Below are positions 1 to 63,484 of a stretch of DNA of 64,000 bases, piece by piece. Numbering within the stretch: position 1 is the stretch's first letter; each line of letters opens with the position of its first letter. The notes beneath the pieces were generated by a model. The model had not been told where the DNA came from and searched no databases. It saw nothing but the letters and a program-made list of their open reading frames with translations. The DNA is from Hydractinia symbiolongicarpus (taxonomy: Eukaryota; Cnidaria; Hydrozoa; Anthoathecata; Hydractiniidae): the NCBI RefSeq assembly GCF_029227915.1, contig NC_079886.1, positions 21,366,501-21,430,500 of the forward strand. Reading direction: 5' to 3'. Position numbers and translations under genes: made by a program.

Positions 1-12
1 AGCCAACAAGAC

Positions 13-1482
13 ATGGATATGTTTCAGCGGGAAGAAATGATTAAAACCAGACCTATTGTAAAAAGCAAATTGAATGAATGGAGAGACTGGTTAATAAATC
101 ATGTACCTAGGGCCATTAAGGATAAAACAACAAAAGCTTTCAAAACCATGAAGGATAAGATCATGGCTTTGTATAAAAAGGGCAGTGGAGAGGAAGATGA
201 GGAAGAGGAAAACCCCTATACACCAACTCTTAGAAACGCACTTCTCCAAGGTCTTATTAATAGTGGAAAAGTTGTTCACGATCCTGTAACCAACACTTTC
301 AATCGTGTAGTAAACTCTCCTGGGACGGGGAAGATAATGGTTTCTGATTTTACACCCGAACTGATTTCACGATTAGCTGTGGAAAACGGTGAAAAGGGGT
401 ACATCCTTGAGGTTGATGTTAGTTACCCACGGGAACTTCATGATTCTCATAACGACCTTCCTTTCATACCCGAGAGGAAAAAGATTAATGGTGTTGAGAA
501 ACTGACACCATGTCTTTCAGACAAGACAAACTACATCATCCATATCCGTGCGCTTGATCAGGCGTTGAAGCATGGTCTTGTTCTTGATAAGGTTCATAGA
601 GTCTTGAGATTTAATCAGAGTGCGTGGTTGAAGTCGTACATAGATTTTAACACTGATTTGCGTACTAAATCAACTAATGACTTTGAGAAGGACTTTTTCA
701 AGCTTATGAACAATTCGTTCTTTGGTAAGACAATGGAGAATCGGCGTAAGCACAAGGATATACGCTTGGCTACAAAGAAGGATCAGTATGAGAAGCTGGT
801 GATGAAGCCAAACTTCAAGGGTAGCACATGGTTCTCGGAAACACTGATGGGTATAGAGATGTCCAAGATCAAGATCAAAATGAATAAGCCGATATACCTG
901 GGACTGGCAATTCTCGACATGTCCAAGATGATTATGTACGAGTTTCACTATGATTACATGAAACCGAAATATGGTGATGACGTGAAACTGTGTTACATGG
1001 ATACTGATTCATTCGTATACCACATCAAAACCAACGACTTTTACAGAGATATCGCCGATGATGTGTCTGCGAGATTTGACACATCGGGGTATGATAAGGA
1101 AGATGGTAGACCTCTACCATTAGGTTTGAATAAAAAGATCATTGGGCTGATAAAGAACGAGTTAGGTGGTAAGGTGATGACCGAGTTTGTAGCCCTAAGA
1201 GCTAAGACCTATGCATACAAACAACTATGTGGTAAGGAGGATAAGAGGTGTAAGGGGGTGAAGAAATGTGTGGTGAGGGAGACCATAGGTTTCACTGATT
1301 ATAAGAGATGCCTGTTTGAGGGTGAGAACATTTACAGAACCCAAGTGACCTTTCGATCCATTAAGCATGATGTTCACACAATAAAAACAAATAAACTGGC
1401 GCTCAATGCCGATGATGATAAACGCATAATTTTGGAAGATGGTATTACCACACTGGCTAGAGGACATTATAGACACACATAA
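13..1482 (+). pseudogene. Polinton/Maverick-like protein-primed DNA polymerase B, internally deleted copy
   Basis: The frame is open from the left edge to a stop at 1482, so the true start may lie outside the window. The C-terminal two thirds look like the palm and thumb of a type B DNA polymerase of self-synthesising transposons: a palm-A-like motif (DVSYP, near residue 135), the helix motif NNSFFGKTMENR, and the catalytic YMDTDS motif near residue 330. The first 75 residues resemble the N-terminal region of cnidarian Polinton polymerase proteins, followed by an acidic linker (EEDEEEEN). The 3'-5' exonuclease and most of the region between them are missing, so N-terminus and palm look joined by an internal deletion around nucleotides 240-330. 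The frame is still open, so the deletion may be fairly young. It is inferred to be inactive. No terminal inverted repeat was found in the window. Confidence 0.8.
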
Positions 1483-5094: not shown

Positions 5095-5179
5095 AAACTA
5101 GGAAGGTAAAAATAAAATATAAGATTAGAAGAAAGAATACTACTAGTCTGGCTGCAAAGAAAGTCGAAAAATTGGCAAA

Positions 5180-6583
5180 ATGATTGCACACATCATCAAA
5201 ACAAATATTACTTCGATTACATGTGTGTTTTTTCTTTGCTTTTGCACTTTGGTTAAATCAAACAGCACTACAATAGTATTAAAAACATGGCACAACCCAC
5301 CATACTATTATGCCGATCGAGAAATCGACAAAGGTATTATTTACGACATGCTGCAAGAACTAAGACGACAATGTAATCTGTATAACTCAATGGTTGATCC
5401 AAAAAAAGAATGGGTGGGTGACATACAAATATTGCATAACTTCAGTCATGGAGATATATTAAAAGAAATTTTCAAGACCTTGCCAAACAAAACCATCACA
5501 GTCGTTGCATCTACAACACGAGCATTGGTGCAGAATAAGATGCAAAGGAAAATCCTTTTAAATACAAAGCCTGTTGCTGTCTTGAGAGAAGGCGAGTTGT
5601 TACTGCTTGTAAAACTATGGTCAGGAATGAAAAAATGTTTTATCGTTGTCTATTTTTTATTAGTAATAACAGTTTTCATGGCCTTTGTTGTCTGGTGTCT
5701 TGAGCGTAGGAACAATAAACATTTTCCTGAAGACTATGGTCGAGGACTTTGGTGCAGTGTTTGGTTTTGTTTTGTTACTGTGACAACTGTAGGGTTTGGT
5801 GATAAAATTATAAAACATTTTATTTCACGTTTGTTATGTTTCTGCTGGATAATTTTTGGTATGATAATGGTGTCATTGATAACTGCAACCCTTACTCGTG
5901 AAGTTGATCAGGAAATTGATCTACGAGGTGAACATATAGCAGTACTGAACGAGTCCATTGAAATGAGAATGGTAAAGTCCCAACTAAAGGCTATGCCTAT
6001 ACCGTTTAAAACTTACAAAAGTATTTTTAAGGCAGTGCGGATGAAGAAAGCCAGAGCTGCCATCATAGATAAACACGTAGCTGCAGAATTATCAGAATCT
6101 GCATTAATGCGCGGTTTAAAAATTCAGAATAGTCTTTTAAAGGAAACACCAATATATATTTATATTTCCTATTTCAACAAGTTTCGAACATGTATGATAA
6201 ATAACGAACATGGATTGAAAAATATGTTCAATTTTGTTCAGCAAGACTTGAGTACGAAATATATACCAGTTCTTGTCACAACAAAGTTTTTTACAAGAAC
6301 TATGGATGATTTATACAACAATCACGATGGTGGTCTTATAAATGGAATCTCTATTGTTGCAGGTAGTTTGGTATTGCTGGCATTTTTGTCCGAAGCATTT
6401 CAACGTTTATCGAACAGTATTTTTAAGAAAAATAGACCCAAACAGGTTGTCGAAGGCACAGAATTGTGTGAAAGGATAAATGAAATAAAGGCTTTAGTTG
6501 CGCGCATTGAAAGCATCGTTTCCGAAACTGAAAAGAAAGACAGTCAAGTCAAAGTGGATACATTAGACTCCCTAAAAGGTTAG
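5180..6583 (+). CDS. GluR0-like ionotropic receptor with a potassium-type pore
   Basis: This is a single-exon gene of 467 codons. Residues 1-27 form a signal peptide. Residues 28-148 look like the S1 half of a bilobed ligand-binding domain (start LKTWHNPPYYY; R114 in ASTTRA is placed where iGluRs bind the ligand carboxylate). Residues 152-174 form M1. Residues 190-208 are a re-entrant pore ending in TVTTVGFGD, the potassium selectivity filter. Residues 212-239 form M2, ending in an iGluR-like SLITATLTRE. S2 runs about 240-385, with D297 a candidate ligand residue. M3 is 386-407, then a tail with a short coiled-coil-like segment (430-455). This is the order S1-M1-P-M2-S2-M3 of ionotropic glutamate receptors, with no amino-terminal domain. 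Related K-selective receptors are known from bacteria (GluR0) and a bdelloid rotifer (AvGluR1). The ligand is unknown. A polyadenylation signal follows at 6658. Confidence 0.8.
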   Translation: MIAHIIKTNITSITCVFFLCFCTLVKSNSTTIVLKTWHNPPYYYADREIDKGIIYDMLQELRRQCNLYNSMVDPKKEWVGDIQILHNFSHGDILKEIFKTLPNKTITVVASTTRALVQNKMQRKILLNTKPVAVLREGELLLLVKLWSGMKKCFIVVYFLLVITVFMAFVVWCLERRNNKHFPEDYGRGLWCSVWFCFVTVTTVGFGDKIIKHFISRLLCFCWIIFGMIMVSLITATLTREVDQEIDLRGEHIAVLNESIEMRMVKSQLKAMPIPFKTYKSIFKAVRMKKARAAIIDKHVAAELSESALMRGLKIQNSLLKETPIYIYISYFNKFRTCMINNEHGLKNMFNFVQQDLSTKYIPVLVTTKFFTRTMDDLYNNHDGGLINGISIVAGSLVLLAFLSEAFQRLSNSIFKKNRPKQVVEGTELCERINEIKALVARIESIVSETEKKDSQVKVDTLDSLKG

Positions 6584-12712: not shown

Positions 12713-14147
12713 CTGTTTTGAATTCAAGCGTTGGACCTTTCACATCACCTTTACGCAGCTTAGTGAAATCAATCTCATGGCGATCCACATAATAAAGCCC
12801 AGTAACATCTGATGTTTCAAAACCAGAACATATATCGGGACACCAGCCATGGTAAAAATATGCTGATAACTGTAATTTTGTAGTGTCCCACAAGGTTGCG
12901 TTTTTCCCTGTTACATCTACCACATATTTGTTGTCCTTATCTGTGTTCAATCCTTGGAATCCAATGTTTGTTCGTCTGAGAATAATATTAGTAACATCAG
13001 CAGAATCAGCCAGTTCGATAGCTACACACGAGCTAGGTAATACAGTAGGTAATGATGCAGGGTATTTGATGTTGCCTTTGATGCTGTTTCCGGGCAAATG
13101 CACAATGTGTTTGGATACATCTATAACAAGTATACAGCTTTAGGATAACACTACTTAAAAAATTAGAACAACTTAAAACATCCATTTTACGTGGTTTGGA
13201 GCTAAAACCACTAAAAAAATCAAAGAAAGACCTGGTTACTCATGGTTTTATATTTAAAACTAAAGAATATGTGGTCCTTAAACGTTTTATAATTTCAAAA
13301 CAGAAAAATTTAAAATATGTTGATGCCTAAACTTTTAAATTATTTTATTGCAAAATATGTTCTTGAGTTATTTCCGTCCTTAAAGAAGAAGGCTAAAGCA
13401 ATCTTGATTCCAGCTCATAAAATGTTCGGGAAATGTTCCCACAAACAAACTTGCCCATGAGTTTTACCATCTTCACTCATTTTTTTTATACAGGTAAAAC
13501 AATACAAAGTTTCAGTGGTTTCACATTAGAGCTTGACCTGCAGAACCTCTCATGCTGATGAAATTGGTCAATAAAAAGCCTTAAGTCTCTATCAACAATT
13601 GTAGCTACGTAAATAAACAACACACGACTAGCTGTTTTAATATTACAATACCTTGTTGTAATTTTATTTCTGCTTTGTAGTTCACTTGTATGATTGGATT
13701 GGTCATCTCTAACGCACTAATAGGTGTCAAAACAATTTCTGATATACCATAAAAATCGCCATCTCTTAGTTGGTATATTCTTCTGCGCATGAAAGAGCAC
13801 CACCCGATGTTTATGATCACCAAAAATTTATGTTTGATTTTTTGTTTTATGATCTCTTTGACTCGGCTTATCGAATCATCCGTCGGTAGGTAAGGTATAA
13901 GTATGTTAAATGGTTTCTCAATGCCATCGATCGTGTGCTGAACATTATACCATGAAGTTGGACGACCGTCCAAATTTAAATTCATGATACCAGCTATCAT
14001 GCATGATTGAGGTTTGGATTTGGGTATTTCATTAAAGTCTAATGTTATTGAAACATTAATTCCTCTTTCGTTATGTTCTGTTGGTATATTAGCATGACAA
14101 ATACTGACATTAAAGATAAGAAAAACAACCAACGTCGTAAGCTTCAT
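12713..14147 (-). CDS. Secreted protein with two SC...GWC domains, two exons
   Basis: Exon 1 (14147-13652) encodes a signal peptide (MKLTTLVVFLIFNVSICHA) and one domain of about 145 residues. It ends at donor CAAG|GTATTG in phase 1. Exon 2 (13120-12713) starts after acceptor TTGTTATAG and encodes a second copy of the domain, ending at CAG|GTAACT again in phase 1. Both copies have an early SC pair (PQSC, PSSC) and a later GWC (INIGWCS, YHGWCP), probably disulfide-linked, on a background of alternating beta-like strands. The fold reminds me of bacterial YbaY/YscW-type beta-sandwich lipoprotein domains, but this is unproven. Read past the last donor, the frame stops after five codons, so either that is the end or a further exon is lost or not recognised. 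No Thr-rich or cysteine tail was found downstream. A start seven codons upstream (14168) is also possible. Confidence 0.65.
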
Positions 14148-16364: not shown

Positions 16365-19300
16365 TTAAGATTTTAACTGTTTAACTGTAAGACGTGAGCG
16401 CACCTTTTTGTCATGCAAGTATTTGTTTAGCTTTCGCTTGTACAAACCAGAATAGTATTCGTCTGTGCGATAGGACAAGTAACGAGCTGTACAGCATGCT
16501 TGGTGACATGTAGGAACACAATACCGTTTACATGAAGGTTTGCACTTCATAACTGGATAATCAGAGAAGTCTGTCTGCTCAAAGCATTCTGAAGTAGCAC
16601 AGGGATATTCAGGTTTGTTCATTTTTAGTATGCCTGGTTGATCCCCCCATATTGGTGGCACCTCCTCCAGGTGTGGAGCTATTGCTTCATTTGAATGTGG
16701 ACAACATTCAACAGGGCAACTAGTATCACATAGGCCATAATGGCAAAGCTCCCGACATTTCACCCAATCTGATAATTCCTGCTGTCTTAATGCGTCTTGT
16801 ACTTCGTCAGTTGTTATTTCTTTTGTATCTGTAGTTGTTGTTTTTGAACTTGTTGTTGTAGATTCTGATTTTGTAGATGTAGTTTCTGATTTTGTAGTTG
16901 TAGTTTTCGGTTTTGCAGTTGTAGTTTTCGGTTTTGCAGTTGTAGTTTTCGGTTTTGCAGTTGTAGCTTTTGAGTCCATAGTTGTAGTTTTCGGTTTTTT
17001 AGTTTTCGAGTTTGTAGTTGTAGTTTTCGGTTTTGTAGTTTTCGATTTTGTAGTTGTAATTTTCGAGTTTGTAGTTGTAGTTTTCGGTTTTGTAATTGTA
17101 GTTTTCGGTTTTGCAGTTGTAGCTTTTGAGTCCGTAGTTGTAGTTTTTGGTTTTGTAGTTTTCGAGTTTGTAGTTGTAGTTTTCGAGTTTGTTGTTGTAA
17201 TTTTCGGTTTTGTAGTTGTAGTTTTTGAGTTTGTAGTTGTAGTTTTCGGTTTTGTAGTTGTAGTTTTCGAGTTTATAGTTGTCGTTTTCGAGTTTGTAGT
17301 TGTAGTTTTCGAGTTTGCAGTTGTTGTTTTTGGTTTTGTAGTTTTCGGTTTTGTAGTTGCTGTTTTTAGTTTTGTAGTTGTAGTTTTCGAGTTTGTAGTT
17401 GTTGTTTTCGGTTTTGTATTTGTAGTTTTCTGTTTTGTATTTGTTGTTTTCAAGTTTGTAGTTGTAGTTTTCGAGTTTGTAGTTGTTGTTTTCGGTTTTG
17501 TATTTGTAGTTTTCGAGTTTTTAGTTGTAGTTTTCTGTTTTGTATTTGTAGTTTTCGAGCTTGTAGTTGTTGTTTTAGAGTTTGCAGTTGTTGTTTTCGG
17601 TTTTGTAGTGGTTGTTTTCGGTTTTGCAGTTGTTGTTTTCGGTTTTGTAGTTGTTGGTTTCGGTTTTGTATTTGTTGTTTTCGGTTTTGTAGTCGTTTCT
17701 GTCCCCTCCGTAGTTGTAGTTTTTGGTTTTTTAGCTGTAGTTTTCTCCATTTTCGTTGTAGCTTTCGATTTTGAAGTTGTAGATTTTAATTTCGTAGTTG
17801 TAGTTATTGGTGTAGCAGTTGTAGTTTTTGGATTGGAAGTGGTAGTTTTCAATGCTGTAGTTGTAGTTTTTGCATTTGTTTTCGTAGTCTTCGATCTTGT
17901 AGTAGTAGTTTTTACTTTTGTTTTTGTATCCTCCACTTCTTCAGTTATAGTTTTCATTTTCGTGGCCGTGGTCTTCGCTTCTGTTTTCTTGGTTTTATCT
18001 TTTGCAGCCGTAGTCTTCGCTTTTTTTGGTGTAGTCTTTGGAGTTGTTGTTGCAGTCGATGTTTCTTTTTCTGTTTTTGCAGTTGTAGATTTCCCTTTTG
18101 TGACTGTGGTTTTCGGTGATGCGGTTGTATGTTTTGTAGTTTTTGATGTTGTAGTTGTTGCTTCAGTGTCTTCTACTTTAGGCGTAGTTTTAAGTTTTCC
18201 TGATAAAGTTGTTCTTCCTTCTGGTGTCGTTAAAGTAGCTTGTGCATGTGACGACGTCGTTGGTGTCACTGTTATTCCTTCCTTGTCTTCATTCGTTACA
18301 CTGGATGTTTCTCTTGATGTTATTGGTGTTGTTGATGTATTTTTTCCTTTTCTTTTAGTAACCATTTTTGTTGTTGATGTTTCGTTACCTTTATTTAATG
18401 TGGTGTGGGCACTACCCAGTGTAGGCTTTTTCGTCACATCATCTTTTAATGACGTGGAAGTTCTTGGCGTAGCCCTAGTTTTAGACTCTATTGTTGTCAT
18501 TTCTGTTGTTGTCACCGAATCATTCTCATCAGAGGCAGATAGTGTTGTTGTATCAGATGATTCTGCTACTGGTGTAGTAGGTTGTGATGCAGCCGTCGTC
18601 CCTTCAGTTGTCATTTCTGTTGCTGTCATTTCTGTTGTAGTCACTAAATCATTCTCATCAGAGACAGACGATGTTGTTGTATCAGATGATTCTGTTACAG
18701 GCGTAGCAGGTTTTACCGTAGTCATTCCCTCAGTTGTTAATTCTGTTGTTGTTATTTCTGTTGTAGTTACCGAGCCATTCTCATCAGACACAGATGATGT
18801 TGTCAGGCCAAATGATTCTGTCACTGATGTTGTTTTTGGTGTCGTATTTGTTTCAGCTGTCAATGCAGCAGTTGGTGTTTCTGTTGTAGTTACTGAATCA
18901 GTCTCATCAGAGGAAGATGGTGTTGTTATATCAGATGATACTGTGTTAGATGTCACAGGCTTTGGTGTAGTTCTCCTTTCAGTTGTCACTTCTGTTGTTC
19001 TTTCTGTTGTAGTTATTTCATCATTGTTATTGGAGGCGGATGACGTTACGTAAGAGAATTCTGTGTTGGACGTGGTAGGTTTTGGTGGCATCTTCTCTTC
19101 AGTCGTCAGTTCTGTTGTTGTTATTTCTGTTGTAGTTACTGAATTGTTCTCATCAGAGGTAGATGATGTTGTTTTATCAGGTAATTCTGTATTAGATATT
19201 GTAGATTTTAGCGTAGTCAGTTTTTCATTCGTTGCTTCCGTTGACGTAATTTGGGTTGTAGTCATTGCATCATTCTCATCAGAGGTAGATGGTGTAGTTA

Positions 19301-20362
19301 TAACAGATGATTCTGTCACAGGCGTAATAGGTTTTGGAGTTGTGTTTTTTCGAGTTTTCAGTTCAGCTGTTGGATTTGGTGTTGTAGTCATTGCCTGATT
19401 GTCATCCGAAACAAATGGTGTTGTTTTATCAAATGATTTTGTGCTAGACGTGGCAGGTTCTGGTTTAGTAATATCTTCAGTTATTGGTTTTGTTGTTGTT
19501 ATTTGCGTTGTAGTGATTGTATTACTCTCATCAGATGCAGATGACTCTGGGTAAGACGTAGTAAGTTTTTGTGTTGCTCTTTCTTCAGTTTTGTATTCCT
19601 TTGTTGGTATTTGTGTTGTACTTATCGCATCACTTTCATTAGAGGTCGAAGAAGTAGTAGCATAAAATGATTCTGTGACAGATGTGACCGATGTGATTGG
19701 TTCTCGTGTTGTCCTCACTTCTGTTGTAGTTACTGCGTCATTCTCGTCAGGCGCAAATGAAGTTGTTATATCTGTTTTACTGGTAGTACTTGTCGGCGAC
19801 GTTGTTTTCTTACTTAGTGAAGAGGTTTTTGATGAAGTAGGTACTATTCTTGGCGTCGTCGTACTAGTTGCTGGTAACCTGGAATAACTTGATCTAGCTG
19901 TTTTCGGTGCACGAGTATTGCTACTGACATTCTCTTCACTATTAATGCTGGGTATTTTGCCAGTGTTTCTTCTATTAGTAGTGGTGTGATCTACTACAGT
20001 TACTATTCTGTTTGATGTAACTGAAGGTGATAGTGTGGTAAAACTTGTTCTAGAGTTTCGACTCGCTTCTCTTTCATTATACGTTTGTGTATGTGTAGTT
20101 GAGCGAGTAACATCTTGTACAGTCACTATAAAGTTCGACGTTGTGTCAACTGTTGGTGGCATAGTAGTAACTGTTGTTGATTTTGTAGTTGTTGTTGTTG
20201 TTGCTGTTGTTATATTGGTTGCCATTATTTTTGGTCGATTCAAAATGCTTTGCTTTAGTAACACTTTTAAGAAAGGTTCATAATCAGTTCTTGAAAAGGC
20301 TTTTTTGTGAGATCTTTTCCCAAAATATGGAAAATAAGATTTTCTTGTTTGGAGCAGTATAT
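16365..20362 (-). CDS. Giant Thr-rich mucin-like protein with two minicollagen-type cysteine blocks
   Basis: A minus-strand frame of about 1,335 codons ends at 16365. Most of it is Thr/Ser-rich with acidic repeats in the first half (SDENDxVTTTE units) and Lys-Pro-Thr repeats in the second half (KPKTTTT, NSKTTTT, 8-residue period), expected to be heavily O-glycosylated. The C-terminus holds two cysteine blocks. One at 1206-1224 has spacing C-x3-C-x4-C-x3-C-x3-CC. The other at 1277-1294 is exactly C-x3-C-x3-C-x3-C-x3-CC. Between them is a PCATSEC motif. This spacing is the signature of minicollagen-type domains, which cross-link nematocyst capsules. The open frame lacks a signal peptide; an acceptor (TGTGTTTAG, exon from 20362, phase 1) suggests the first coding exon lies upstream. 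The 5' end is unresolved. The C-terminal 40 residues are basic. Confidence 0.75.
16810..17760 (-). repeat. Degenerate 24-bp coding minisatellite
   Basis: The DNA repeats units such as TTTTCGGTTTTGTAGTTGTAG (plus-strand sense), coding on the minus strand for KPKTTTT and NSKTTTT octapeptides. Units differ by single bases and a few are shortened to five or six residues, so array length probably varies between alleles. Confidence 0.8.
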
Positions 20363-21030
20363 CTAAACACATAAAAAGTTAGTACAGCATTTGAATACAA
20401 TGCTTTAGAAAGCAAAATAACTAGTAAACAGACCCAGCGGAGCATTTTTGAAAGTGGAGGGGCTAAATTATTTAGAATTAAAGGAGGACCGACCATGGTT
20501 GGGGCCGACGGGCCAAGAAAATAGATAAGAAAATGATTATACATAGAAATATAGAAACGTCATATTTTGTGTAAGACATATTTTCAAAATAAGCAACAGT
20601 AACATTAAAGCAAAATATAGAAAATGCAGAGAAAGGCTATAGTATATGGGGCTTAAAAATATTTAAACCTTATTTCGAATGCAATATTAAACACACATGG
20701 TCGTACATTGATTAGAAAACGAGTAAAATAAAAGGAAATTTTGTAACTATTGCCAACGTGTCCAAAGATTTGCCAGCAGAGTTGAGTTACAATATTATCC
20801 TAGATTTTAAAAAAACACAAACCTTTGTCTGGTATTTTCGGCAAACCATAGCGAAATGCTCTTCTTGAAGAAAGTCTTATATTACTCTTGGATGAAAAAC
20901 AATCAGTAAAAATCCAAAAAAGTATGAAAATATTGAAAACATTTCTCAGCATTTTAATGTTGTATGCTTGTTAATTATACACTATTTTTTACATCTACAC
21001 TATTTATATTATTACCATATATATTATTAT

Positions 21031-21056
21031 TCGTTCGTTTGTTTGTTTGTTTGTTT
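21031..21056. repeat. (GTTT)n microsatellite
   Basis: Six or so consecutive GTTT/GTTC units. Confidence 0.85.
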
Positions 21057-22512
21057 GCCCTACACTACACTACAAGAAAAGTTATGCAAAAGTGCGTATG
21101 ACATTTACTTCACGCTTCAGTATTTTTATGAATGACATGTGTGTGTTAAAAAGCGTTTTGTGTCGCAGAGAAGGTTGTAAAAGAAACTGTCATTGGTTGA
21201 AAAAAAAAATGTGGTTACTTAAGACTTAACATGCGAAAGTTGCCTGAATTGTTTTTCAGTTGACATGGTACTTAATTGCATTTTTAACGTTGATTTCTAC
21301 AATCACTGGACATAATAGTCATGAAAATAGTCGTGATTAAACTGTCTCTCCAAATTTCTAAACAGTTTGGGCAGCACTTTTGCAGTACTAAATGTGTTGA
21401 CCAACGGAAAAAATGTTAGCTGCACTTCTTATGGTATCCGCAATATAAAACAAACCATTGCCCCCCCCCCCCTTCCCCCCAAAAAAATGAAAATCCGGAA
21501 AATGTGACTTTCTAAGCACACTTTATAATACAAGATTCTAATATTTCTGCCATTATGCATTAACAAGACAGCTTGACAAGCTCGGAGTGTGTGTGGTGCT
21601 TATTTAAATACAGCGTTCTTAATTCTTTGCAGTTAGTATCTTTGAAATCTGACCCTCCTTTTCACCACTTAACATCCGGGTTATAGTTTACCGAAAACTC
21701 AACTGTTTTACTGATAAATTTGTTCTGTCAAATATATTGATTACTTTACTGTGGATATTTTTTTAACTGATTTTTAAGAAGCTTTTAAATCATTTGAGCA
21801 GTATTTGTTTTTGTGCATTTGTAGTTGGGACGCCCATTTATTGATGGTACTGGCCCAAATTTTTAAATTGTCGTCTTAAGGCGTACCAAACCAACCAATG
21901 ACATATGGTTATGGAACGTTTTAAAGACTGTTGGTCAGCTCAACTATTAACACCTGCCACATGGACATTTTAGAGGTCATCGTAAGAAGAGGCAAGGTGC
22001 AACAAAGGGTCACGTCGCTTAAACTTAGGACTCTCGGTTAGAGCTTTGGACTCCTGATGAAAATTCAACAAATTTTTGGACCTTCTTACCATAAAAGAAA
22101 CCGTTGGCAACCCATCGTGTTTTCAGCCAAAGTCACAAGACTTTTAATAAGTGACAAATTATTAGCTACAGTATCTTGTACACAATTAATTGTACAAAAT
22201 TGTTTATTCTTGCACAAGGTATTGTACAGATGTAACCACGATGTACAATATATTGCGAATTTCAGAGATCACAAGTTTTTTTAAATCTATTCAGTTTGAT
22301 TTGAAGGAACAAGTAGCAGGTTCCTATTGAATCATTTAAAAAGAATTGAGTCTTTTGCTTTCTGCGTATTTAAACATTATCGAAACAAAAGTGTGAAATA
22401 TTATTGCACAAAATTGTACACTAGTTACTACAATAAATTGTACAATATTACGTACAAAATATTGTAGCAGTGAAAACTACCCCTAAAGCCGAAATTCCAT
22501 TAGGCGTTCCAG

Positions 22513-22582
22513 AACGCGCTGAGCGTGGCGGCTATTGTTCTTTCAGTCCCAAACACAATAAAAGCGGTCCGCTCAGCGCGGT
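22513..22582. repeat. GC-rich inverted repeat, possible MITE end
   Basis: CGCGCTGAGCG at 22515-22525 pairs perfectly with CGCTCAGCGCG at 22570-22580, enclosing a 44-nt loop. The segment is far more GC-rich than its surroundings. Confidence 0.55.
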
Positions 22583-23549
22583 TTTAAAAGTCGTCTCTAC
22601 TTCGACTTTTACGCGCGTTTTCAAAGCGCTATCCAATTAAAATGCTCCAACGCCACGTGATATAAACAACTTTAAAGCATCACCTGTGACTAGATATCTC
22701 ATTGTGGTGACACAAGGCCTGTTATTTGCACTTATGGGCTCTCTCATCTTAGTTTTAGCTTTTTGTAATTAAAGGAGCAACCCAAGATAAAAGAGTTTCA
22801 AGTTTAGTAGGTGACATTGACTGGGGATTGAACTAGGGTACATTATAATCATGGTTGTTTCATACGCAAATATTTCCGTCTTTTTCGTGCATTTTAATCA
22901 AAATTTTATTGCAAATTTGTTGGCTTAAATTAAAAAAAATTCTGCTACGAAAAAAGTCTATATATCTATAATCTTGTCTCTCCAACTGAACGTCTCAAAA
23001 TCAAATAAGATCTTCAAATCTGCACATATTAACTATGCTTAATTGTAAAGCAGGTATGTGCTGTATTCCAAACAAAGCTAGATAACAAAACGGTACTTTT
23101 TAAGTTTTATTTTATTTTTGGAAATAAAAATCACAAACAGTTTAGCCTTCATCAAAGAAAATTAGTTTAATAAAAGATGCATATATGTTAATTTTCCCGG
23201 TCCTATCCATGTTCGCAGGTCTGTTGACTATATTTTGAATTATTTTTATTTACACTTTAAAATTGTTTTTTTATTAGTACAATTTGAACGATTATTTTTT
23301 CTTTATCATGCGCAATCATCCGCATATCTTGTTTGTTGTACCGAAACTTCTTTTAACTGTCAACAGATTATACACTGCACAGTCAAGCATGAAGAAATCG
23401 ATAGTTTCTCTTCCATTCGCAACATTTCTTACTGTGTGTGTGTCTTGAGTTAAACATAGGAGAATAAGTAAACGTACAAGTATCACAATGTTCTGTGGCG
23501 AATTGGAGATAGAAAATACTTGAAAATTTTTACCTGCAAATGTTAAGAA

Positions 23550-24973
23550 ATGGATGGAAAAGTGATACTTCTATTAGTGGTTACTTGCATTTCTACTATA
23601 TCATCCGTAGACCTAAAAAACCGAAAGTTGGAAGGAGTTATAAAATACCATAAGGCAATTCCAGACCCTTTACCAAAAGGGTCTTGTTTGATTGTAAAAC
23701 TTTCAGTGTACAAAAATGATAAAGCAGAATCTAAAATGGTAACAAAACATGTAATATATAATCCTGAAAGAAATTCACCAGCAAAGTATTCAATGGAATT
23801 CCCTGACACAGACATTTCGGAGGATGATTTATATAATTTAGTGGTATCTGCAATATTAAATGTGGGATGGTGTTCAGACGATAAAAAAACAATTGATTCT
23901 AAAGTCGTCAAAGATGCTGATTACCATACTATCACTTTAATTGGTGTATTACCAGACAAAATTATTCCAACATCTGACATTGTTATTGAGGGGCCAGAGA
24001 TCGCGTTAGAACCAGGTGAGTAGCAATTCGATTCTTATACAGTGGTAATCAATCTGATTTACACACATCATCGATTCTGTCCTTTACATCTGGTTCTCGT
24101 CTCGTGAGAAACGTCAGTGATTTATTCTCTTAAGAAATAAAATACTCCATTATCAGTCGTTATTATATATTTGTTCTGTTTGTCTTTGTAGTCTCATTCA
24201 CAAATCCAAAAGCCCTGAAAAATGCTCATTTGAAGGTGTTATCATTATTTAAAAGTACAAAGAGTCCCTTAATTATTCACGACTTTGTCATCAACACAAC
24301 AAGGAGAACAACAACAAGAAAGATAAAAATAAACACAACAAAGACACCAAATACAACAACAAGAGCAACAACAACAACAACAACAACAACAACCAAACCA
24401 ATTGTAGGAGTAACAACAACAACACCTTTTAAGCCAACAGGCAGTATAACCTTACCTAAGTTGACCACTCGTTTGACAATTACATGTCCAAAGCCATGTG
24501 CAGACGAGTGTTATTTTGCGGGATGTGCAGCAGCTTGTTGCTATGCAATGGCATTAAGTTTACAACCCGGACAGCAGCAGCAACAACACCAGCAACAGAG
24601 TCCTTCATGCACAGGTACTGCATGTGCAAGTCCTCCATCCTACCAAATGCCATGCAGCGGTCAAAATTGTCAACAAAATGAAAACCAACCGAATCAAATG
24701 ACAGGACTAGTTACTTTAGAATCTTCTTCCTACCCTTGTACTGGAAGCGACTGCCCGCAGATGATTAATAAGGGGCAACCATGCTCTGGACTGAGTTGTT
24801 CCACCCAAACACAATGTACGGGTCAAAATTGCCCTCAACAATCGTCTTTTCAACCATTACCACAAAGTTATCCATCATGGAGAACTTGTCAGCCTTCGTG
24901 CTACTCCAACTGCGCTCCATACTGTCTACGACAATGTTGTAGTTCGTCGTACCAAGGCTATGGTAAGAAATAA
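23550..24973 (+). CDS. Secreted SC...GWC / Thr-rich / double minicollagen-type cysteine-block protein
   Basis: Two exons: 23550-24015 (donor CAG|GTGAGT, phase 1) and 24192-24973 (acceptor TCTTTGTAG). The frame continues across the junction to give 415 residues. Order: signal peptide (1-20), SC...GWC domain (about 22-150, KGSC and NVGWCSDD), a Thr-rich stalk (about 190-250), then a cysteine block at 253-271 (x3,x3,x4,x3,CC). A Gln-rich linker follows with five PC[S/T]GxxC-like motifs, then a perfect C-x3-C-x3-C-x3-C-x3-CC block at 387-404. The block spacing matches minicollagen cysteine-rich domains; the rest of the protein is not collagen, as no Gly-X-Y run is present. Location in the nematocyst wall or tubule is inferred. 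It is paralogous in layout to the mucin-like gene at 16.4-20.4 kb, on the opposite strand. AATAAA follows at 25247. Confidence 0.8.
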
Positions 24974-28573: not shown

Positions 28574-28756
28574 TTTTTTTCTTTTACACATTACAGACTT
28601 CGTCTTTAAAATTGGGTGACTAAACATTGAAAAGAACTCTTTTTAAGATTTAACCAAAACATAACGTTTTAGTGATAAAACGTATTATATGTATTTTCAG
28701 GACCAGATATGATTTCTGAATCTTTGAATCGCTTCTCAAAGTAATTCAAGTTCGCA

Positions 28757-30403
28757 ATGCAGATTTTCTTTATCTCTGTTGTACTCTGGTTAATCGAAGA
28801 TGTTATTGGCATGCAATCATTTGGTGAACTAAGACCTGGGATGGTGATCTCATCTTGTTACTACTCGGAGAGTGTATTTTCAACAAGTCTAACTACTTGT
28901 ACTTTATCGTGTCTTGAGAAATCGACCTGTACCGCAGCGACTTACCATGACATTGAGAAGAAATGCTTCTTAACTTCTCATCCGAAAAAACAGTTAACAT
29001 ACCTACCCAGCACTGATAATGTTACCACTGTGACAATAGTCCCGTGTAGTCGGCAGCCGTCAATTTGTCAAAATAACGGCATTTGTGTACCAACAGACGA
29101 TGTGATAGATGGATATAAATGCATCTGTGAAGAACATTGGGAAACGAAGCACTGCGAAAAGCGTAAGTCAAACAGTTCTTGGGTGCAATTCTTCTAAAAC
29201 TTGCAATGCACTCAATTCACTGCATCTGCAGCCCTTTATGCTTCTTAATGTAATTATTAGGCGTTAACCCATGGAAAAATCAGCGGGTTCGTTCATCAGC
29301 CATTTTTTTTTACTTTAAGGGGGACACGGAATGAAGCTGTGCGATTTTAGGCTATTTTAAACACAAAAATGGCAATTTTTATAGACTTGTCAGTTACCTG
29401 TGGAAAAAACCACGGGATCGCCCGTCTTTTATATACCACATTTCATGTTTCCACACTACGTTTTTGTTGCGCACAAACAGACAAAAACGCGCCTATCGTT
29501 GTAGAGATTACAATTTTTTTGCATTTTCTTTTACTTTGTAGCATTTGAAACAAGGCTTCTTCTTAACATGTACTAGCTGAAAGCACCGGGTATAGTCAAA
29601 AACACCACATAAATTACGGCAAACTTAGCCCCAATGTCATGTGGTTTGAGCAGTAGGACATAAAATCATAAAAACTAAAAATCATGTAAAAAACCAAACA
29701 GGCAGCGTTAAGAAAGAGATTGATATTACAAACAATCGAGTACTTAAAAAAATAGACATAGCTGTAATACGTTTATTTTTCGCCTTCCCTTGCTTGGCAA
29801 CATCTTCTCCATGCCTTCTTACGGTTTTTATATTAAAGAACCCCACAGTAGGTTGTGTATTTACTTGTTTATTTGTTTACTACTCTTAGCAATCGAACGT
29901 TGTGCTGAACACTTCAAGCACTACGAACCAACAAATCTCTGCTATTATACATCGATTCATCAATTTACGTATGATCAAGCCATCACGAAATGTCAAAGTT
30001 TAAATGCAACACTAGCAATAGGTAACAGTCGCATTAAAATCGACACCATCTTGGAAATTGCGAAAGAAAACGGAGGGTGGTACCTTATTGGTTTGAAGAA
30101 AATTGTGAGTCTTCTTCTTCTTCTTCTTCTTCTTCTTCTTCTTCTTCTTCTTCTTCTTCTTCTTCTTCTTCTTCTTCTTCTTCTTCTTCTTCTTCTTCTT
30201 CTTCTGCTAATGAAACCCTATTCTCTTCTTAGAATGGTGTTTGGCAATGGACGGATGGGACAACAAATTTTATTCAGTGGAGACCGTCTGAACCTAGTGG
30301 TGATGGCAACTGTTCTACCACCTTCCCTGATGGTTACAAACTGAATGATGTATCTTGCATGATTCCAAGAAATATTTTATGCGAACAGAATCCTTTGTAT
30401 TAG
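28757..30403 (+). CDS. Secreted PAN-like / EGF-like / C-type lectin protein
   Basis: Three exons with agreeing phases: 28757-29162 (donor C|GTAAGT), 29890-30104 (acceptor CTCTTAG, donor ATT|GTGAGT) and 30233-30403, giving 263 residues. A signal peptide (about 1-18) is followed by a cysteine-rich PAN/apple-like segment (about 30-95, SSCYY...TLSCLEKSTCTAATY). An EGF-like domain (about 99-135, CQNNGICVP...GYKCICEEHW) and a C-type lectin domain (about 138-260) follow. The lectin domain has WYLIGL, WQWTDGT, an EPS tripeptide at the EPN/QPD position, GNC and NDVSC, consistent with a calcium/sugar site of mannose-like type, although P-to-S weakens the prediction. Likely extracellular sugar recognition or adhesion. 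Intron 1 contains two degraded hairpin-headed repeats; intron 2 is mostly (CTT)n. AATAAA at 30522. Confidence 0.75.
29256..29345 (+). repeat. Hairpin-headed repeat, partial copy
   Basis: GCGTTAACCCATGGAAAAATCAGCGGGTTCG is a degraded head of the family seen at 4.4 kb. It lies in intron 1 of the lectin gene; the tail is not recognisable. Confidence 0.4.
29386..29511 (+). repeat. Hairpin-headed repeat, degraded copy
   Basis: The head CCTGTGGAAAAAACCACGGGATCGCCCGTCTTTTATA is followed by a short ACAGACA tract and TTGTAGAGATTA. This matches the head-microsatellite-tail order of the 4.4-kb copies. Confidence 0.5.
30109..30206 (+). repeat. (CTT)n microsatellite filling intron 2 of the lectin gene
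   Basis: About 32 uninterrupted CTT/TTC units occupy most of the 128-nt intron 30105-30232. On the sense strand the tract is all pyrimidine. Confidence 0.95.
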
Positions 30404-32215: not shown

Positions 32216-32461
32216 TGCTATATAGTCAGACTAAATGCCATAATAAAGAGGTTTCGGCGGTACAGTTTTACTTGTTGGCTTTATGGTCCTAACATTTGTA
32301 CTTTCCCTTTGTTCTTTGTAGAAAAGCAAGTCACTGTAGCTTTACGCGGTAGGTTTTGATTGGTTGGCCAGCTGAGAAACACGTAAACTTTCTATTGGTT
32401 TATTTCGAACCAAATGGAACACTCGAAAAACAACAACAAAGATTTAAACTTGTATTCCAAA

Positions 32462-33782
32462 ATGGCTGCCAGAAAAGCGTGGCTCTTTGTTGTTCTTTTT
32501 ATGATCTCAGCTTCGTTCATCTATTGTGAAGATGAAAGTATTGTTAAGCCTGTAAAAGAAGGAACAGATGAACCTGCTTCGAAGCCCACGAATGAAGAAA
32601 GCAATTCTGTTCAAGAAGTAACTGAAGACTCAGGAGTTCTAGTTTTAACAGATAAAAACTTTGATCAAGTTATCAACAGTAACAGTTTAATTCTTGTAGA
32701 GTTTTATGCTCCTTGGTAAGTCTCTGAGTTTACGTCAGTATATTACACACGTTTGCTAGTTATACTTTATAGCAAAAGTATTAAGAGCTTGATTACAAAC
32801 ACCTCTGTGTTTTGCCTCCAGGTAGTCTTCAATTAGGCCATTTCACAGTAAATCTGTGATTGCTCAAGTTCAGGTTCATTCTGTTGTCATATTGCATATC
32901 GCTAAACCTGTTTGCTAAAGGCTTTTTATGTAGATCAGATTGTTTAAGATAGTTTCGATTCCTCTTGACGGCGATTCAATATGGGCGAGTGAATGTTACC
33001 ATAGCTACGTTACCATTGGTTAACCCAAGCCATGTGAGGGAAATTGAGGAGATGGCACATTATGTGGGTCGTTGGATGTTGCCAGGAGTTGTCTAGTAGA
33101 GCGCGGGCCCTAATTGGGTTTGCGTAGCTCAAAAAGAGCATTAAATACTCTAGGACTCTCCATCTAAGCCATTGCCCCTGCTGGAAATAATAAACAGGGT
33201 TTATCCCTCAATATTTGTGATGCTAGCCATATCTATCTATCTGTAGTGGTGGTAGCACATTAAGTTGTTAGCCCATTTGGTACCATCTACTGACAGCAAT
33301 CCGGCTGTTGCAAGTTAGAGCAATGCTATATGTATCTCTAGTGGTAATGTAACATAGTTTCAGTTGGAGGGGGAGGAAGAGCCAGCTGTTAGGATGGAAT
33401 CCTCAAAGACGTTAAAACTTTCTGTTACGTACATACTTAATGTCGCCAACATGATGGTTAAAGTCCCTGTTTTGTCCTGATCAGTTGGCCATCATTGATA
33501 ATATGTTATGTCTGCGTTTTCCAAGACGAAAAAAAAAAACAAAAAAAATTAAACACAATGATAATCAACAGAGCTTCCAAACTCAATCTTTGTGCCATTT
33601 TTATACATGCTATAGTAAGTAAGTAAATACATTTATTTGTTAAGTTAGATTACAAAAAATAAACTTTTTAAAAAAGATAAATTGTCTAGAGTATAAATAA
33701 TGCAATAATCTAACCTAACAGGAGAGCTAGTCAAATAGATAAATCTAATCAAGCCCCCCTGTCAACAACAAAAGATAAGATA

Positions 33783-36800: not shown

Positions 36801-39800
36801 ACAGGGTGGACATGAAATTTAACCAGTTCTAGAAGAAGTCCTGTAAAACACCTCAGTGTGACGGCTGCATCGCTTTTATTTTATTTTCTTACCTTTTGAC
36901 TTGAAATTTTTCTGTGGTTACCCCTTGGTATGCTTTTTCCTGTACTTGACTATAACAAGTTTGGTATTTTCAGGGTAAAGTGCGAAAGAATTTTCATTGA
37001 TTTATTTTTGCTACAACATTTTGTGTTTAGGTATTTCTGAATATATGATCTCACATTCTGGATTACCCACAAAGCTTTACGAAAACTTAGTCGAAGTTAA
37101 AAAGTTTTTAAAATCAAATTTTGACGAGCCTGTCATGTTGGGCGTGTTTGATTCAGAAGAGGACGTTATGTTTCAACTGTTTGTTGATGCAAACAATGAT
37201 ATTAGAGACGACTACGTCTTTGGACACACTTTCTCAAAAGACGCGAAAAAGTTTTTTAAGCTCCAACAAAGTGCTATCATTGTGGCCCATCCAGAACATT
37301 TAGTATCAAAATATGAACCAAGATACCAGTTATATAAGGTGAGGTTGTTGTAAATTGTTTGAACAGAAGCTGGAACAGTAAAGCCAGGTAATTAAACCTT
37401 TAAGGAAACTGATTTTCAATTTTTTCTTACTCTCAATTTTTCGCAACAATTTAATTCAGCGGTTTAGTTATTTGCAAAAAACCGTCATGGATTTTAAAAA
37501 ATATCCCCTAAAAAGGCAAACTATTTTATAGCTTTAGTGGTATTACATTTCCCGAAAAAAAACCTGGGATATTCGCGAAGTATCCCCGCAAAATTTAATT
37601 AAATTATAATGAAGATTAGCAAAAAAGAAAGATAGGAATGCTCAAATAAAGTAAAAAGTTTTAAAACATTTGACAGATTCAATTCGAAGCCTGCTTCTTC
37701 AGAAATGCTTTTTTATTTAGGACGAATCTGGCAGTCCATCAGAAGTTCAATCGTTCTACAAGAAACATCACGTTCCCTTGGTGGGAAACTACCAACAACA
37801 CATCGCTGGACGATTTTCCAAAAGACCCTTGGTTTTGGTATTTTATGATGTCAATTTTAAAATAGAATACAGATCAAGTAAGATTCTTGTTCTTCTGTAC
37901 TGTACTAAGAATCATTTTTCTTAATTTTAATTGTGGACTTGATGTTCAAGAGGTCCTGAGTTCGAACCCTGTCTACTACACATAAGTTCAAAGATTTCTG
38001 CAACTCAAGAGAGCTTTAAACACTTTGCAATCCCTCCTGGAAACAAGTGGCAGAATATCCCTCGAAATTAGTTAGTCTAACCACAAAATATAAATTCGGA
38101 TAGACAATCATTTTTATCACTAAAAAGGGCCCGAATATTTGTTATGTATATAACTAATACGTTGTACAAAGTTGTTTTGTTCTATTTAACAATACATTTC
38201 AGTGACTCAATTTTGGAGAAACAAAGTGCTGTCAGTCGCTAAAGAATACCCAGATTTCCAATTTGCTGTGGCCGAAGAAGCTCAATTCGAAGACAAACTA
38301 AAAGACTTGGGTTTAGATGAATCGGGTGAAGATGTCAACGTAGGTTTGTACGATGAAAACGATCGCAGATATGCTATGGTGGATGAAGAGTTTAGCGAAG
38401 ATAGTTTGACGGAATTTTTAGAAGCCTACAAAGCAGGTATATATATTTCTTGAGCAAAGTCAATATTAAAGCTGGCTGTTGCAAGACTATGGCAGGCACG
38501 TCTCGCGGGAAAATATATGCGGAAATTTAAACTAGCAATAAAAAGATTTTTTTTTGCACATCTTTTTTTTATTAGGTTTTACATTTACTCGTTAACTTCG
38601 AAAAAAAATTCTGTCATTTTTTCTGCGGCTTTGTTTAACCAGCGAGAAAGAATTTGTTGTTTTCTATTACTTTCTTGTTTAAATATGTTCTTATTTTTTG
38701 ATAGGAAAACTCAAACCAATTATTAAGTCGCAACCCATACCAAGTAGAGTTAAACCTGGCAAAGTTCAGGCCGTCGTTGGTCACTCCTTCGATAAAATAG
38801 TTATGGACGAAAGTAAAGAAGTATTCATTGAATTTTATGCACCATGGTGCGGCCACTGTAAAGCTATTGTAAGTTTTTCCTTCTGGTTTGTCAACTTTAG
38901 ATACTATGTTATAAAACAATATGCATTAAGTAGTTGGCGATACTTTATTTGTAATAATTATCACGCATCGTCCAAACACGGGGTTGTACTTAATCATGAA
39001 AATCTGAGAGATTTCTTTTAGGAAATTATTGGAACTCCGGAGAAATTTTTTTTTTTTTTACTTTTTATATTTTGATGTTGTAGGTATTCTGTATTTTAAA
39101 AATTAAAACACTAGCACAAAAATTTCATGTCTGCGTCATCATGGAAAATTTTTATTCTAAGTTTCTGAGTTTTAGTCATGGAGAAAAAGTCTGAGAGGTG
39201 TTTCCTGAATAACGGTAACAACCCGAAATAATTTTTTTTTAGTTAGCTACTGGTTGAATTTTAAGTTACGCGAAAATTAACAGCGCGAGTTCCCGTCATA
39301 TTTTTATTGCTTTTACGCAAAAATAAATTGCGCGAAATATATAAATAAGTTATCAAAAAAATACTACTTGGAGATTACAGGAGGTTCCACTTTAAAATCA
39401 TCAGCTTTTTAAGCCAATGAATGGAATGATAATAGAAGTTTATTTTATTTTTGTGGTTAATTTTGCGCTAAAAATTTCTATCATGGGGCTTTTGACTGGT
39501 AGCTAAAAAATTAGGTCCTTGATTTTAAGATCATCACAAATTTTGTTGCACAACGTGTAAGTTCTACTAATTAATCTTGACTTTTAACTTGTTTAGAGAA
39601 TTAATAAAACCTATTTCATAACGACATTTCTATCAGAACCCAAAAAAGCAGGCGTTTAGGGGGCGTTTAGTGAATATTCAAACCTTAGGGGGCATTTATT
39701 TAGAACAGGCGGTAAATTGTAAGAGTAAAATATGATGAGCATTTTTATATTTCAGGAAAATAATATCATTGAAGTAGCCAAGAAGTTCAAGAATGAGAAG

Positions 39801-41278: not shown

Positions 41279-44200
41279 TTAACCCGGCTCCTCGTGGCAT
41301 TTCTCTATTTTTCTTTTCATAATTTTTATTATCACATCCAAAACCTCTGGTTCAGATATACAATTAATGATAAAATTGTTATTTCGAAACAATTCATCAA
41401 ACGATTTGTTATTGTGAGTCTCGTCACATGACTCTAAAAAGGCTGCACGAACTAATTGAAGGGAAGCATGGGGAGATGATAATTCCTATTGGTTAAAAAC
41501 GAAATTAATATTAGTACATAGGTCAAACGGTGACATATAAAAACACAATTATGATGATACAACCGATTCGATATTTACATCTGTCCGCAACACTTTTTCT
41601 TTTAATAAGTAACACATCAGGGCGGCTATAACTATCAAATTTCATAATTTCAGGAGATTTTAGGAAAAAACACTAAAAAAACGTATCAAAATTACTTTTC
41701 AGTAGATTTTGACAAAATTCTAGGAGGAAATAAATGAGTTATAAATAATAAAACTAAATCTTTTATGAAAATAATAATAAATATATAGATAAATATTGTG
41801 AAATAAAGAAACAATTGCACATTGCATAAAACAATTAGGAGATATCAGAGTCGATATTTTAGGTTATTTACACGATGTCAGAAGGTGTATGGAAATATTT
41901 TTATAGGATTCCGCACAATTACCTGTTTTGGATTTAACCATCTATTCGTAGGTGTTCCATCACCCAGTTTTAACGAATGCACCTAAAAATAAAAGGAAGA
42001 ATCACAAGAAGAAACAGCACACCTAAAGATATCTCAGGTTAGACTTAAAAAGACATAGTGTGAAATCAATAAGGAATATATCGATGTGAAAGTACGATGA
42101 AAATATTCTACAATATTTGATTTGAATATATTTCCAGAAATTTCTTTGTTTCATAACTAGGCTTTAACAATAAGTTTGGCAATATATTGTGATCAGCATT
42201 TAGCAAAATATTGCTGACAATATATTGCTATAATGTAAAACAGCCTTTAACATTGACAATAAGAATGACGTCATCTTACCAACAGGTGAACCAGTGATTC
42301 GCGTATTCTATCAACATCATCATCAGCCTAGATTATGAGCGTAAACTCTAATATTTCAGGTGTTTTTTAAAAAAGGTCACCTCCAAGGTAGAAAATAATA
42401 CTCACCTGTTCTAACCAAGTATTAATACTGATACTTGTGTTGATGTTTTCAACATAATGCCACCAATGTTTAGGTACAAATAGTACTTCACCAGGTTGCA
42501 AATCAACCTAAAAAATGCATAAATGCGTTGTTGAATTGAGCTTTTTCGTAAGAACTCCATATACTCACAATCCTCAATTTATTTTATTGCCATTTGAAGG
42601 TGAAAAAAATTGATTTTGCGACACAAGTTATTTCAGTGTCGAAAACAGCAACAATTTACGTCCTAAGGTTTGATCCGAAAAAGCCGATTTCCATTTAACG
42701 GAAATTGAGCGGGCGGCAGAAAGAAATACAGTGTTACCGTGATGTATGTTCTAAATGTTGCACGAATTGAACAAACATCGAAAAATTAAAAGCTCGATGT
42801 GCAAGTTAAAAATTTTGAACTTGCACGATCAGTTTTTTGCACGCTTGTAAGAATTGATATATTATAATGCTGCGGGTTTTTTTGCTGACATAGGGAAAAA
42901 ACATAACAATCAAGATAGCCTGCAACAGGACAAGCATAATGGACTTAAATGGACATAAAATCCACTTTAAGGTTTGAAAATAAAATAAAATAATCAATTT
43001 ATACAATTAGATCAGTTTGTTTTGAATTCAACTGGAGATCAACTGGAGATCTACGAGAGATACACTATTATCAGAATCTTATTTTTGGTTTATTATAGAT
43101 GTTGATTCTCTTGATAACCCCCTAAAATAAATTTCCAATCGCGTTTGTGAGGGGTTCCAGTATAGTGACTCAAATAGGAAAGTAATAACTTCACACCCCT
43201 AACCCACTACTCCAACAGTTCATATGTCTGGTTCCACCAAACAATTAAATTTAAAAATACGATAGAAGAAACATACCTTATAGCTTGTTTTTTGAAATTC
43301 TGAAGATGTTGGATTTGTTGTACAAAACACACTGGACTCCTCATATGGTATTCGTGTTGGGTGCAACATTTCTGCGTCAGACGGTGGGAATAGATACCAT
43401 CTTTTAACTCCATCAATTTGCGCCACAAGATTTGAGCCGTACGTGTCCTGGTGACAAGGAGTAAATGAACCTTCGCTACCAATCCAAATTGTGGAATCAC
43501 TACCATTTCTGTTTGGATAACCGAATTTGCACCAATCAACAGCTGCTAAGACTTTCTCATCTTTATTCTGAAACAACTCAGCCATGTAATTGTAATCTGC
43601 ATAACACCAGTATGATTCGCTAAGGGATCGTCTCAAAATGTTCGTACGTTTTTTTCGTATAATTATACGAACGCTACGAAGTACTTCGTTTCGTGAAACG
43701 AATGTCATACGAAGTGCTTCGTTTAAAATAAAAAATATAAACGAAGTTTATACGAACTTTTTTAATACATGATACGAACTTAAACGAAGTTTTTTTATCA
43801 TACAAAATAAAATGATACGAACTTTGAACGAAGTAAATTGCTATACGATCTTGAAACGAACTTCAAAAGTACCGGCGTAATAGCGCGTAATTATTTCAAT
43901 ACAAAATCAGAAACAAAAGAATTAAACGAAGTTTTTTTGACATAGGAAAAGAAATGATACGAACTTTAAACGAAGTAAATTGCTATACGAACTTAAAACG
44001 AACTTCAAAAGTACCGGCGTAATTGCGCATAATTATTTCAATACGAAACCAGAAATAAAAGAAGTAAAATATACGATTTATTTTAATAGTTTCAACCAAA
44101 CTTAAATTTAATATCAAGCATTTGTATTTCCTTTTTAAAATATCGAATTTAATTAAATTAAACAGTTTTTTTTAAAACTAGCTACTTTCATAGCATGTCT

Positions 44201-61132: not shown

Positions 61133-63484
<2,352 letters not shown>

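Follow-up and report, generated by a model that had tools for sequence, protein, structure and literature searches.

Two neighbouring Hydractinia genes join minicollagen-type cysteine blocks to a charged mucin-like stalk and to a YscW-like head

The cysteine-rich domain (CRD) of minicollagens is also carried by proteins of the nematocyst wall or tube that are not collagens, established in Hydra for NOWA, cnidoin and CPP-1. In the excerpts of the literature consulted, to which our published comparisons extend throughout, the partner of this clasp in CRD proteins of the nematocyst is collagen, polyproline, a silk-like elastomer or a lectin; chondroitin and poly-gamma-glutamate are also present in nematocysts (PMC9205923). 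Here we analyse a stretch of 64,000 nucleotides from Hydractinia symbiolongicarpus (NCBI RefSeq assembly GCF_029227915.1, contig NC_079886.1, positions 21,366,501 to 21,430,500 of the forward strand), referred to below as the window and numbered from its first letter. Two divergently oriented genes, gene 1 (16365-20952, minus strand) and gene 2 (23550-24973, plus strand), encode predicted secreted proteins with two cysteine blocks of this kind towards the C terminus. On balance, we favour the view that both are structural glycoproteins of the nematocyst wall or tubule, tied in by disulfides. An earlier note on the same DNA had drawn attention to the blocks, and we take up its claims where the results bear on them.

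A shared C-terminal cysteine module

The structures of both genes follow from reading frame and splice sites, with signal peptides judged by eye, and they display directly the joining of head and anchor in gene 2, the cysteine patterns and the charge blocks described below. Gene 1 predicts a protein of 1,375 residues, ordered as signal peptide, basic propeptide (its end, ...YFPYFGKR, at residues 53-60), a stalk of 1,140 residues, two cysteine blocks and a basic, tyrosine-containing tail of 41 residues; its phase-1 intron has GT-AG borders, with donor GTTTGTG and acceptor TTTTTATGTGTTTAG. The 415 residues predicted for gene 2, also interrupted by a phase-1 intron, run from signal peptide through a globular domain, a basic threonine-rich neck, a first block and a Gln/Ser/Pro-rich stretch to the final block. 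Exon 1 of each gene, with the signal peptide in gene 1 and the globular domain in gene 2, lies inside the interval of the earlier note but goes unmentioned there (Table 1).

The exact spacing C-x3-C-x3-C-x3-C-x3-CC occurs twice in the window, once per gene (16544-16491 on the minus strand and 24887-24940 on the plus strand), as first described, and in none of 100 dinucleotide-preserving shuffles of the window. When the residues of the C-terminal regions were shuffled, the pattern arose in 4 of 200,000 trials for gene 1 and 12 of 200,000 for gene 2. Relaxing the loops to 2-5 residues in all six frames yielded five places, four of which are the blocks of the two genes; the fifth, at 18942, lies opposite the gene 1 stalk on the other strand, and we take it as a chance match. 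The first block of each gene does carry the one-residue insertion reported for it, but in different loops, loop 2 in gene 1 and loop 3 in gene 2. Variant blocks of this sort have precedent, because CPP-1 has an enlarged loop 2 and splice variants of Hydra nb001 have altered cysteine patterns. Both proteins likewise have the two C-terminal blocks ascribed to them, but in gene 1 the second block is not the end of the protein, which continues into the 41-residue tail. The absence of a collagen Gly-X-Y run was borne out on reading the translations of both genes, and the gene 1 stalk holds 13 glycines in its 1,140 residues. The name minicollagen was considered for the two proteins and rejected on two counts, the missing Gly-X-Y and the missing N-terminal CRD.

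The segment between the blocks differs in length and content. In gene 1 it measures 52 residues and offers, at the corresponding place, one degenerate C-x4-C (PCATSEC); in gene 2 it measures 115 residues, including 8 glycines, and contains five C[ST]GxxC motifs, a count that none of 20,000 shuffles reached (shuffle maximum 2). The C-terminal module is what the two genes share, and their N-terminal parts differ. The modules align at 38.5 bits in a stretch that takes in the last C-x4-C pair and the final block, where 17 of 49 residues are identical; 1 of 200 shuffles with cysteines fixed attained this score. With only two genes, alike in this module alone, the family of variable stalk length tuning elasticity that had been proposed for them falls away.

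Sequence matches in the PDB (E <= 10) point in one direction for the exact blocks. All four matches of the gene 1 final block are minicollagen or NOWA (best E 0.044), with VPTC common to the block and 1SOP, and all four matches of the gene 2 final block are again minicollagen or NOWA (best E 0.32). The first block of gene 2 had five matches, three of them NOWA rows (Table 1) and two of them designed toroids with no significant stretch, one of which ranked first (E 0.0027). The whole gene 2 cysteine region matched one unrelated chain (E 0.38) and no CRD.

To ask more of the final blocks than their spacing, we held the cysteines fixed, permuted the remaining 12 residues and scored the fit to known CRDs. 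Against three known CRDs, the summed BLOSUM score gave p 0.00055 for gene 1 and 0.0056 for gene 2, and the best identity gave p 0.0067 and 0.023. Cnidoin alone is the fair test, because the other two reference CRDs were taken from the queries' own match lists; it gave p 0.0011 for gene 1 and 0.025 for gene 2. The corresponding values were 0.024 and 0.009 against NOWA 2nx6 alone, and 0.007 and 0.08 against minicollagen-1 alone. Proline occupies position 11 in both final blocks. The two exact blocks and the first block of gene 2 thus appear to resemble minicollagen and NOWA CRDs beyond the cysteine spacing on which the likeness was first proposed, a resemblance supported at weak E-values. Valine or isoleucine at position 4 and proline at position 14 favour the C-CRD fold (PMC4863159); because the final blocks have neither (S4; H14 or L14), both are predicted to take the monovalent N-CRD fold.

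Nematocyst protein or secreted glue

The anatomy of the two proteins suggests how they might work. Both would be secreted, and the C-terminal module, two CRDs flanking C-x4-C pairs, would serve as an anchor that joins the disulfide polymer of minicollagens. The anchor of gene 2 would display a beta-rich head of YscW/pilotin type on its short basic threonine-rich neck, much as NOWA displays its lectin. That of gene 1 would tether a very long, presumably O-glycosylated brush, acidic in its distal part and strongly basic in the half next to the anchor, and this basic half could hold the capsule polyanions chondroitin and poly-gamma-glutamate against the wall. We infer the mechanism for both proteins from this anatomy, and with it the nematocyst location, O-glycosylation, disulfide cross-linking, polyanion binding and what the gene 2 head binds. 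The putative signal peptide and the KR-ending propeptide of gene 1 fit the minicollagen layout (PMC3145756).

Several observations weigh against placing the proteins in the nematocyst wall or tubule. All four blocks are C-terminal, whereas minicollagens, cnidoin and CPP-1 have theirs at both ends, and gene 2 has no KR propeptide behind its signal peptide. The first block of gene 1 had two PDB matches, both unrelated and neither a CRD. The best E-values of the exact blocks (0.044 and 0.32) are weak, because the blocks are only 18-19 residues long, and Pfam gave no match for the C-terminal region of either gene; the profile check suggested in the earlier note was therefore answered in part, by PDB sequences at weak E-values and not by Pfam. 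Against minicollagen-1 alone, the gene 2 final block did no better than p 0.08. Finally, none of 15 candidates qualified as a relative of the gene 1 C terminus at E <= 0.01.

Gland-cell glue is a fair rival, albeit an unlikely one. On this account both proteins are mucins of a secreted mucus or of a pedal or tentacle glue, similar to Sgs3, that form disulfide multimers through a CRD-type clasp outside any nematocyst. The KTTTTKP repeat of gene 1 is close to the basic PTTTK repeats of Sgs3, a salivary glue mucin of Drosophila that also has a separate threonine-rich region and possibly multimerises through its terminal cysteines (PMC6115407, PMC9409817). Sgs3 is, however, an insect protein of 307 residues (PMC9409817), compared with 1,375 in gene 1, which additionally has an acidic repeat block. 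The clasp residues, which resemble those of minicollagen, NOWA and cnidoin, and the gene 1 propeptide ending in KR in the minicollagen style argue against a glue, and the literature consulted places CRDs in nematocyst proteins only.

A YscW-like head on gene 2

The N-terminal domain of gene 2 appears to be a remote relative of the YscW/pilotin family. It matches Pfam YscW (PF09619) at E 8.3e-06 and 26.5 bits, above the curated cut-off of 22.6, over 71 of the 107 profile positions, and YscW is the sole Pfam family returned for it at E <= 10. One protein among 2,275 candidates, P0001, is a full-length relative of gene 2 at 92% identity and itself scores 25.2 bits against the YscW profile. At the predicted exon junction P0001 and gene 2 are identical for more than 30 residues on each side except for Y124F, and in the neck a single gap of 3 residues and a few substitutions set them apart. 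Because this full-length relative carries the same arrangement, the fusion of a YscW-like head to a cysteine module is confirmed. The earlier note had overlooked the domain.

Set beside the family to which it is compared, which includes Escherichia coli YbaY and, by structure, the pilot of the Pseudomonas aeruginosa type III secretion system (2yjl), gene 2 is an animal secreted fusion. Its head and that of P0001 reach 25-27 bits against the YscW profile, whereas YbaY reaches 136 bits, some 110 bits stronger. The head has no significant pairwise match to YbaY (profile comparison, probability 0.4%; blastp, expect 14), and the part matched by the profile does not include its conserved GWC motif. 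None of the three YscW-like exons of the window had an NCBIfam match at E <= 10, and Pfam found no C-type lectin (E <= 1) in gene 1 exon 2 or in gene 2 exons 1 and 2.

The head might instead be a large N-terminal propeptide or intramolecular pilot, which would solubilise the cysteine-rich part or guide it to the capsule vesicle and then be cleaved; we find this doubtful. The putative propeptide of cnidoin is unusually large (residues 22-111; PMC4321713), the Pfam description of PF09619 presents YscW as a lipoprotein chaperone, and a dibasic RR (TTRR-TTTRK) lies where the head of gene 2 gives way to the neck. The published nematocyst cleavage site is nevertheless KR, not RR. The head is also at least as conserved as the part it would escort, differing from P0001 at 5 of 136 residues compared with 11 of 162 in the cysteine module. 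Moreover, the neighbouring gene 3 carries such domains in tandem, and no CRD was found there (nor was its 3' end).

We have similar doubts that the head is some other beta-sandwich, for example a C2-like domain, and that the Pfam match reflects a weak coincidence of strands. A PDB sequence search with the head had Synaptotagmin-1 as its sole match (E 0.048), and C2 folds are among the matches of a structure comparison. Two different bacterial pilotins, however, stand at the top of that comparison on a second look; YscW alone appears in Pfam at E <= 10, above its curated cut-off, and no Pfam C2 domain does.

The gene 1 stalk

Threonine-rich stalks had been described for both genes, and their lengths stand (1,140 residues in gene 1 and, by eye, about 60 in gene 2), but that of gene 1 is not a plain threonine stalk. 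Of its 1,140 residues, 413 are threonine, 141 lysine, 127 serine and 68 proline, and serine and threonine together make up 44-51% of three measured stretches. Its charge forms a diblock, with a net charge of -36 over residues 181-600 and +86 over residues 661-1140. Repeats of 7 residues (KTTTTKP / KTTTTNS) build the basic half and repeats of 42-43 residues the acidic part, and with these tandem Ser/Thr-rich repeats in a predicted secreted protein the stalk is mucin-like. The diblock, behind its signal peptide and KR-ending propeptide, had escaped the earlier note.

Between successive 7-codon units of the basic half, differences at the three codon positions number 82, 65 and 98 of 355. The excess at position 3 (p 0.014, uncorrected for dependence between units) hints that selection has acted on the protein. 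At lag 42, the acidic part shows no such contrast between codon positions (0.546, 0.541 and 0.543).

Two further explanations concern the cysteine module and the gene 1 frame. Convergence, in which a generic cysteine-rich module arrived at C-x3 spacing by chance or drift and shares no descent with minicollagen CRDs, strikes us as quite improbable. Six-cysteine 18-mers are low in information and their E-values weak, the first block of gene 1 lacks a CRD match, and the gene 2 final block fits single known CRDs at p values ranging from 0.009 to 0.08. Against this stand the exact pattern in both genes, the proline at position 11 in each and the fit of gene 1 to cnidoin alone (p 0.0011). It is very improbable that gene 1 is no working gene but an open frame in decay or one sustained by its repeats: several frames stay open where a tandem repeat has a period of 3n, and no relative of the C terminus emerged from the 15 candidates, but the signal-peptide exon is in phase with GT-AG sites, the 1,375-codon frame is intact and ends in the cysteine module, and codon position 3 is the most variable between 7-codon units (p 0.014, dependence uncorrected).

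Gene 3 and other features of the window

The two domains encoded by gene 3, a neighbouring gene, are divergent relatives of the gene 2 head. They match it at 30.0 and 28.5 bits, scores that none of 200 shuffles reached in either case, and have its GWC motif; the earlier note had overlooked them as well. The two domains have no detectable match to each other and none to Pfam YscW (E <= 1 and E <= 10). A 3' end or third exon was looked for and not found, and the two exons that were found hold no CRD. One of 608 candidates, P0002, is a relative of the first exon at 92% identity; it is probably genomic, because its end reads into the intron. A structure model of the first domain reached a predicted local distance difference test score (pLDDT) of 51.0. 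No further YscW-like exon stood out, the best of 1,100 frames beyond the profile's own three having E 0.45.

The window is eukaryotic in character, with introns and with neighbours that include a UAA transporter and an mTERF protein (Pfam scan). An open frame at 1-1482 (plus strand) looks like a mobile-element DNA polymerase of the B type, and the Pfam scan gave no such family. A single-exon frame at 5147-6583 (plus) encodes an ion channel core (Pfam Lig_chan, Ion_trans_2). At 28745-30344 (plus), an exon with PAN and EGF domains precedes a weak match to the start of a C-type lectin (E 0.06, short of the cut-off), which a perfect (TCT)32 run at 30110-30205 interrupts. Exons that by eye are Thioredoxin/PDI-like lie at 32387-32719 and 38683-39021 (plus; VEFYAPW, APWCGHC); they would place a gene for a disulfide-forming enzyme about 7 kb away from the disulfide-rich gene 2, probably by coincidence. 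Several tandem arrays with common CGAACTT-like words and periods of 142, 85, 32 and 11 lie at 43780-45418, and a (GTCT)39 microsatellite of 38.8 copies lies at 61888-62042.

Table 1 Coordinates of the features of genes 1, 2 and 3 in the window
Feature	Position	Strand	Description
Gene 1 exon 1	20823..20952	-	Signal peptide by eye (MLRNVFNIFILFWIFTDCFSS...), start of propeptide, phase-1 GT donor
Gene 1 exon 2	16365..20362	-	Remainder of propeptide (...YFPYFGKR), stalk, cysteine module, stop; open frame
Gene 1 Thr/Lys/Ser stalk, 1,140 residues	16806..20225	-	Charge blocks and repeats
Gene 1 first cysteine block	16701..16757	-	C-x3-C-x4-C-x3-C-x3-CC; no CRD match in PDB
Gene 1 second cysteine block	16491..16544	-	Exact CRD pattern; S4 / P11 / H14
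Gene 2 exon 1	23550..24015	+	Signal peptide by eye, YscW/pilotin-like domain (PF09619), phase-1 GT donor
Gene 2 exon 2	24192..24973	+	Basic Thr-rich neck, cysteine module, stop
Gene 2 first cysteine block	24485..24541	+	C-x3-C-x3-C-x4-C-x3-CC; three NOWA rows, E 0.013-0.019
Five C[ST]GxxC motifs	24608..24832	+	In the Gln/Ser/Pro-rich stretch between the gene 2 blocks
Gene 2 second cysteine block	24887..24940	+	Exact CRD pattern; S4 / P11 / L14
Gene 3	12713..14147	-	Exons 14147-13652 and 13120-12713; two divergent domains related to the gene 2 head; phase-1 introns

Comparison with known systems

Within the open-licence literature searched, and as far as those searches reach, three features are new: the YscW-like head on a clasp, the charged mucin stalk on a clasp and the series of C[ST]GxxC motifs between clasps. 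No paper in that literature joined the nematocyst with YscW or YbaY; among the matches listed for pilotin or YscW with cnidarian terms, none contained pilotin or YscW; those listed for YscW and YbaY were, by title or start of abstract, bacterial or off-topic; and among those listed for Hydra nematocyst minicollagens the term 'threonine-rich' did not occur.

If genes 1 and 2 do encode nematocyst proteins, the clasp would serve as an all-purpose plug to which cargo as unlike as a charged mucin and a pilotin-like domain can be attached. How one secretory vesicle gives rise to many kinds of capsule would then become a question testable gene by gene, and natural building blocks would be added to the CRD-based materials already being made. 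A bolder reading, which we regard as speculative and unlikely, is that a cnidarian acquired a bacterial-type secretin-pilot domain (YscW/YbaY) and fused it to the nematocyst clasp, where the fold, in bacteria the escort of a secreted partner, escorts or docks a protein, lipid or glycan in the capsule, with the domain also present in tandem in a neighbouring gene; the same clasp on a polyampholyte mucin brush would grip the capsule polyanions, the anchor staying constant as its cargo is swapped.

Among described proteins, minicollagens have in common with both genes the CRD pattern, and with gene 1 the signal peptide (by eye) and KR propeptide; genes 1 and 2 differ from them in having no Gly-X-Y, no polyproline flanks and no N-terminal CRD. 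CPP-1 of Hydra likewise combines an extended non-collagen core with CRDs, one of which (antigen) has the enlarged loop 2. In CPP-1, however, CRDs cap a polyproline core on either side, whereas gene 1 has a charged Thr/Lys/Ser stalk anchored at one end. Hydra cnidoin resembles the two genes in its non-collagen core with CRDs, in the glutamine-rich, cysteine-containing repeats beside those CRDs and in its long N-terminal propeptide (PMC4321713). In cnidoin the CRDs flank a silk-like core, whereas genes 1 and 2 have both blocks towards the C terminus and showed no GxGQQ repeat. In architecture, Hydra NOWA comes closest to gene 2, with a globular head followed by C-terminal minicollagen CRDs. NOWA has a C-type lectin head and eight CRDs, whereas gene 2 has a YscW/pilotin-like head, a threonine-rich neck, two blocks and five C[ST]GxxC motifs. 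Non-collagen proteins with CRDs have thus been described before, and genes 1 and 2 would belong with NOWA, cnidoin and CPP-1.

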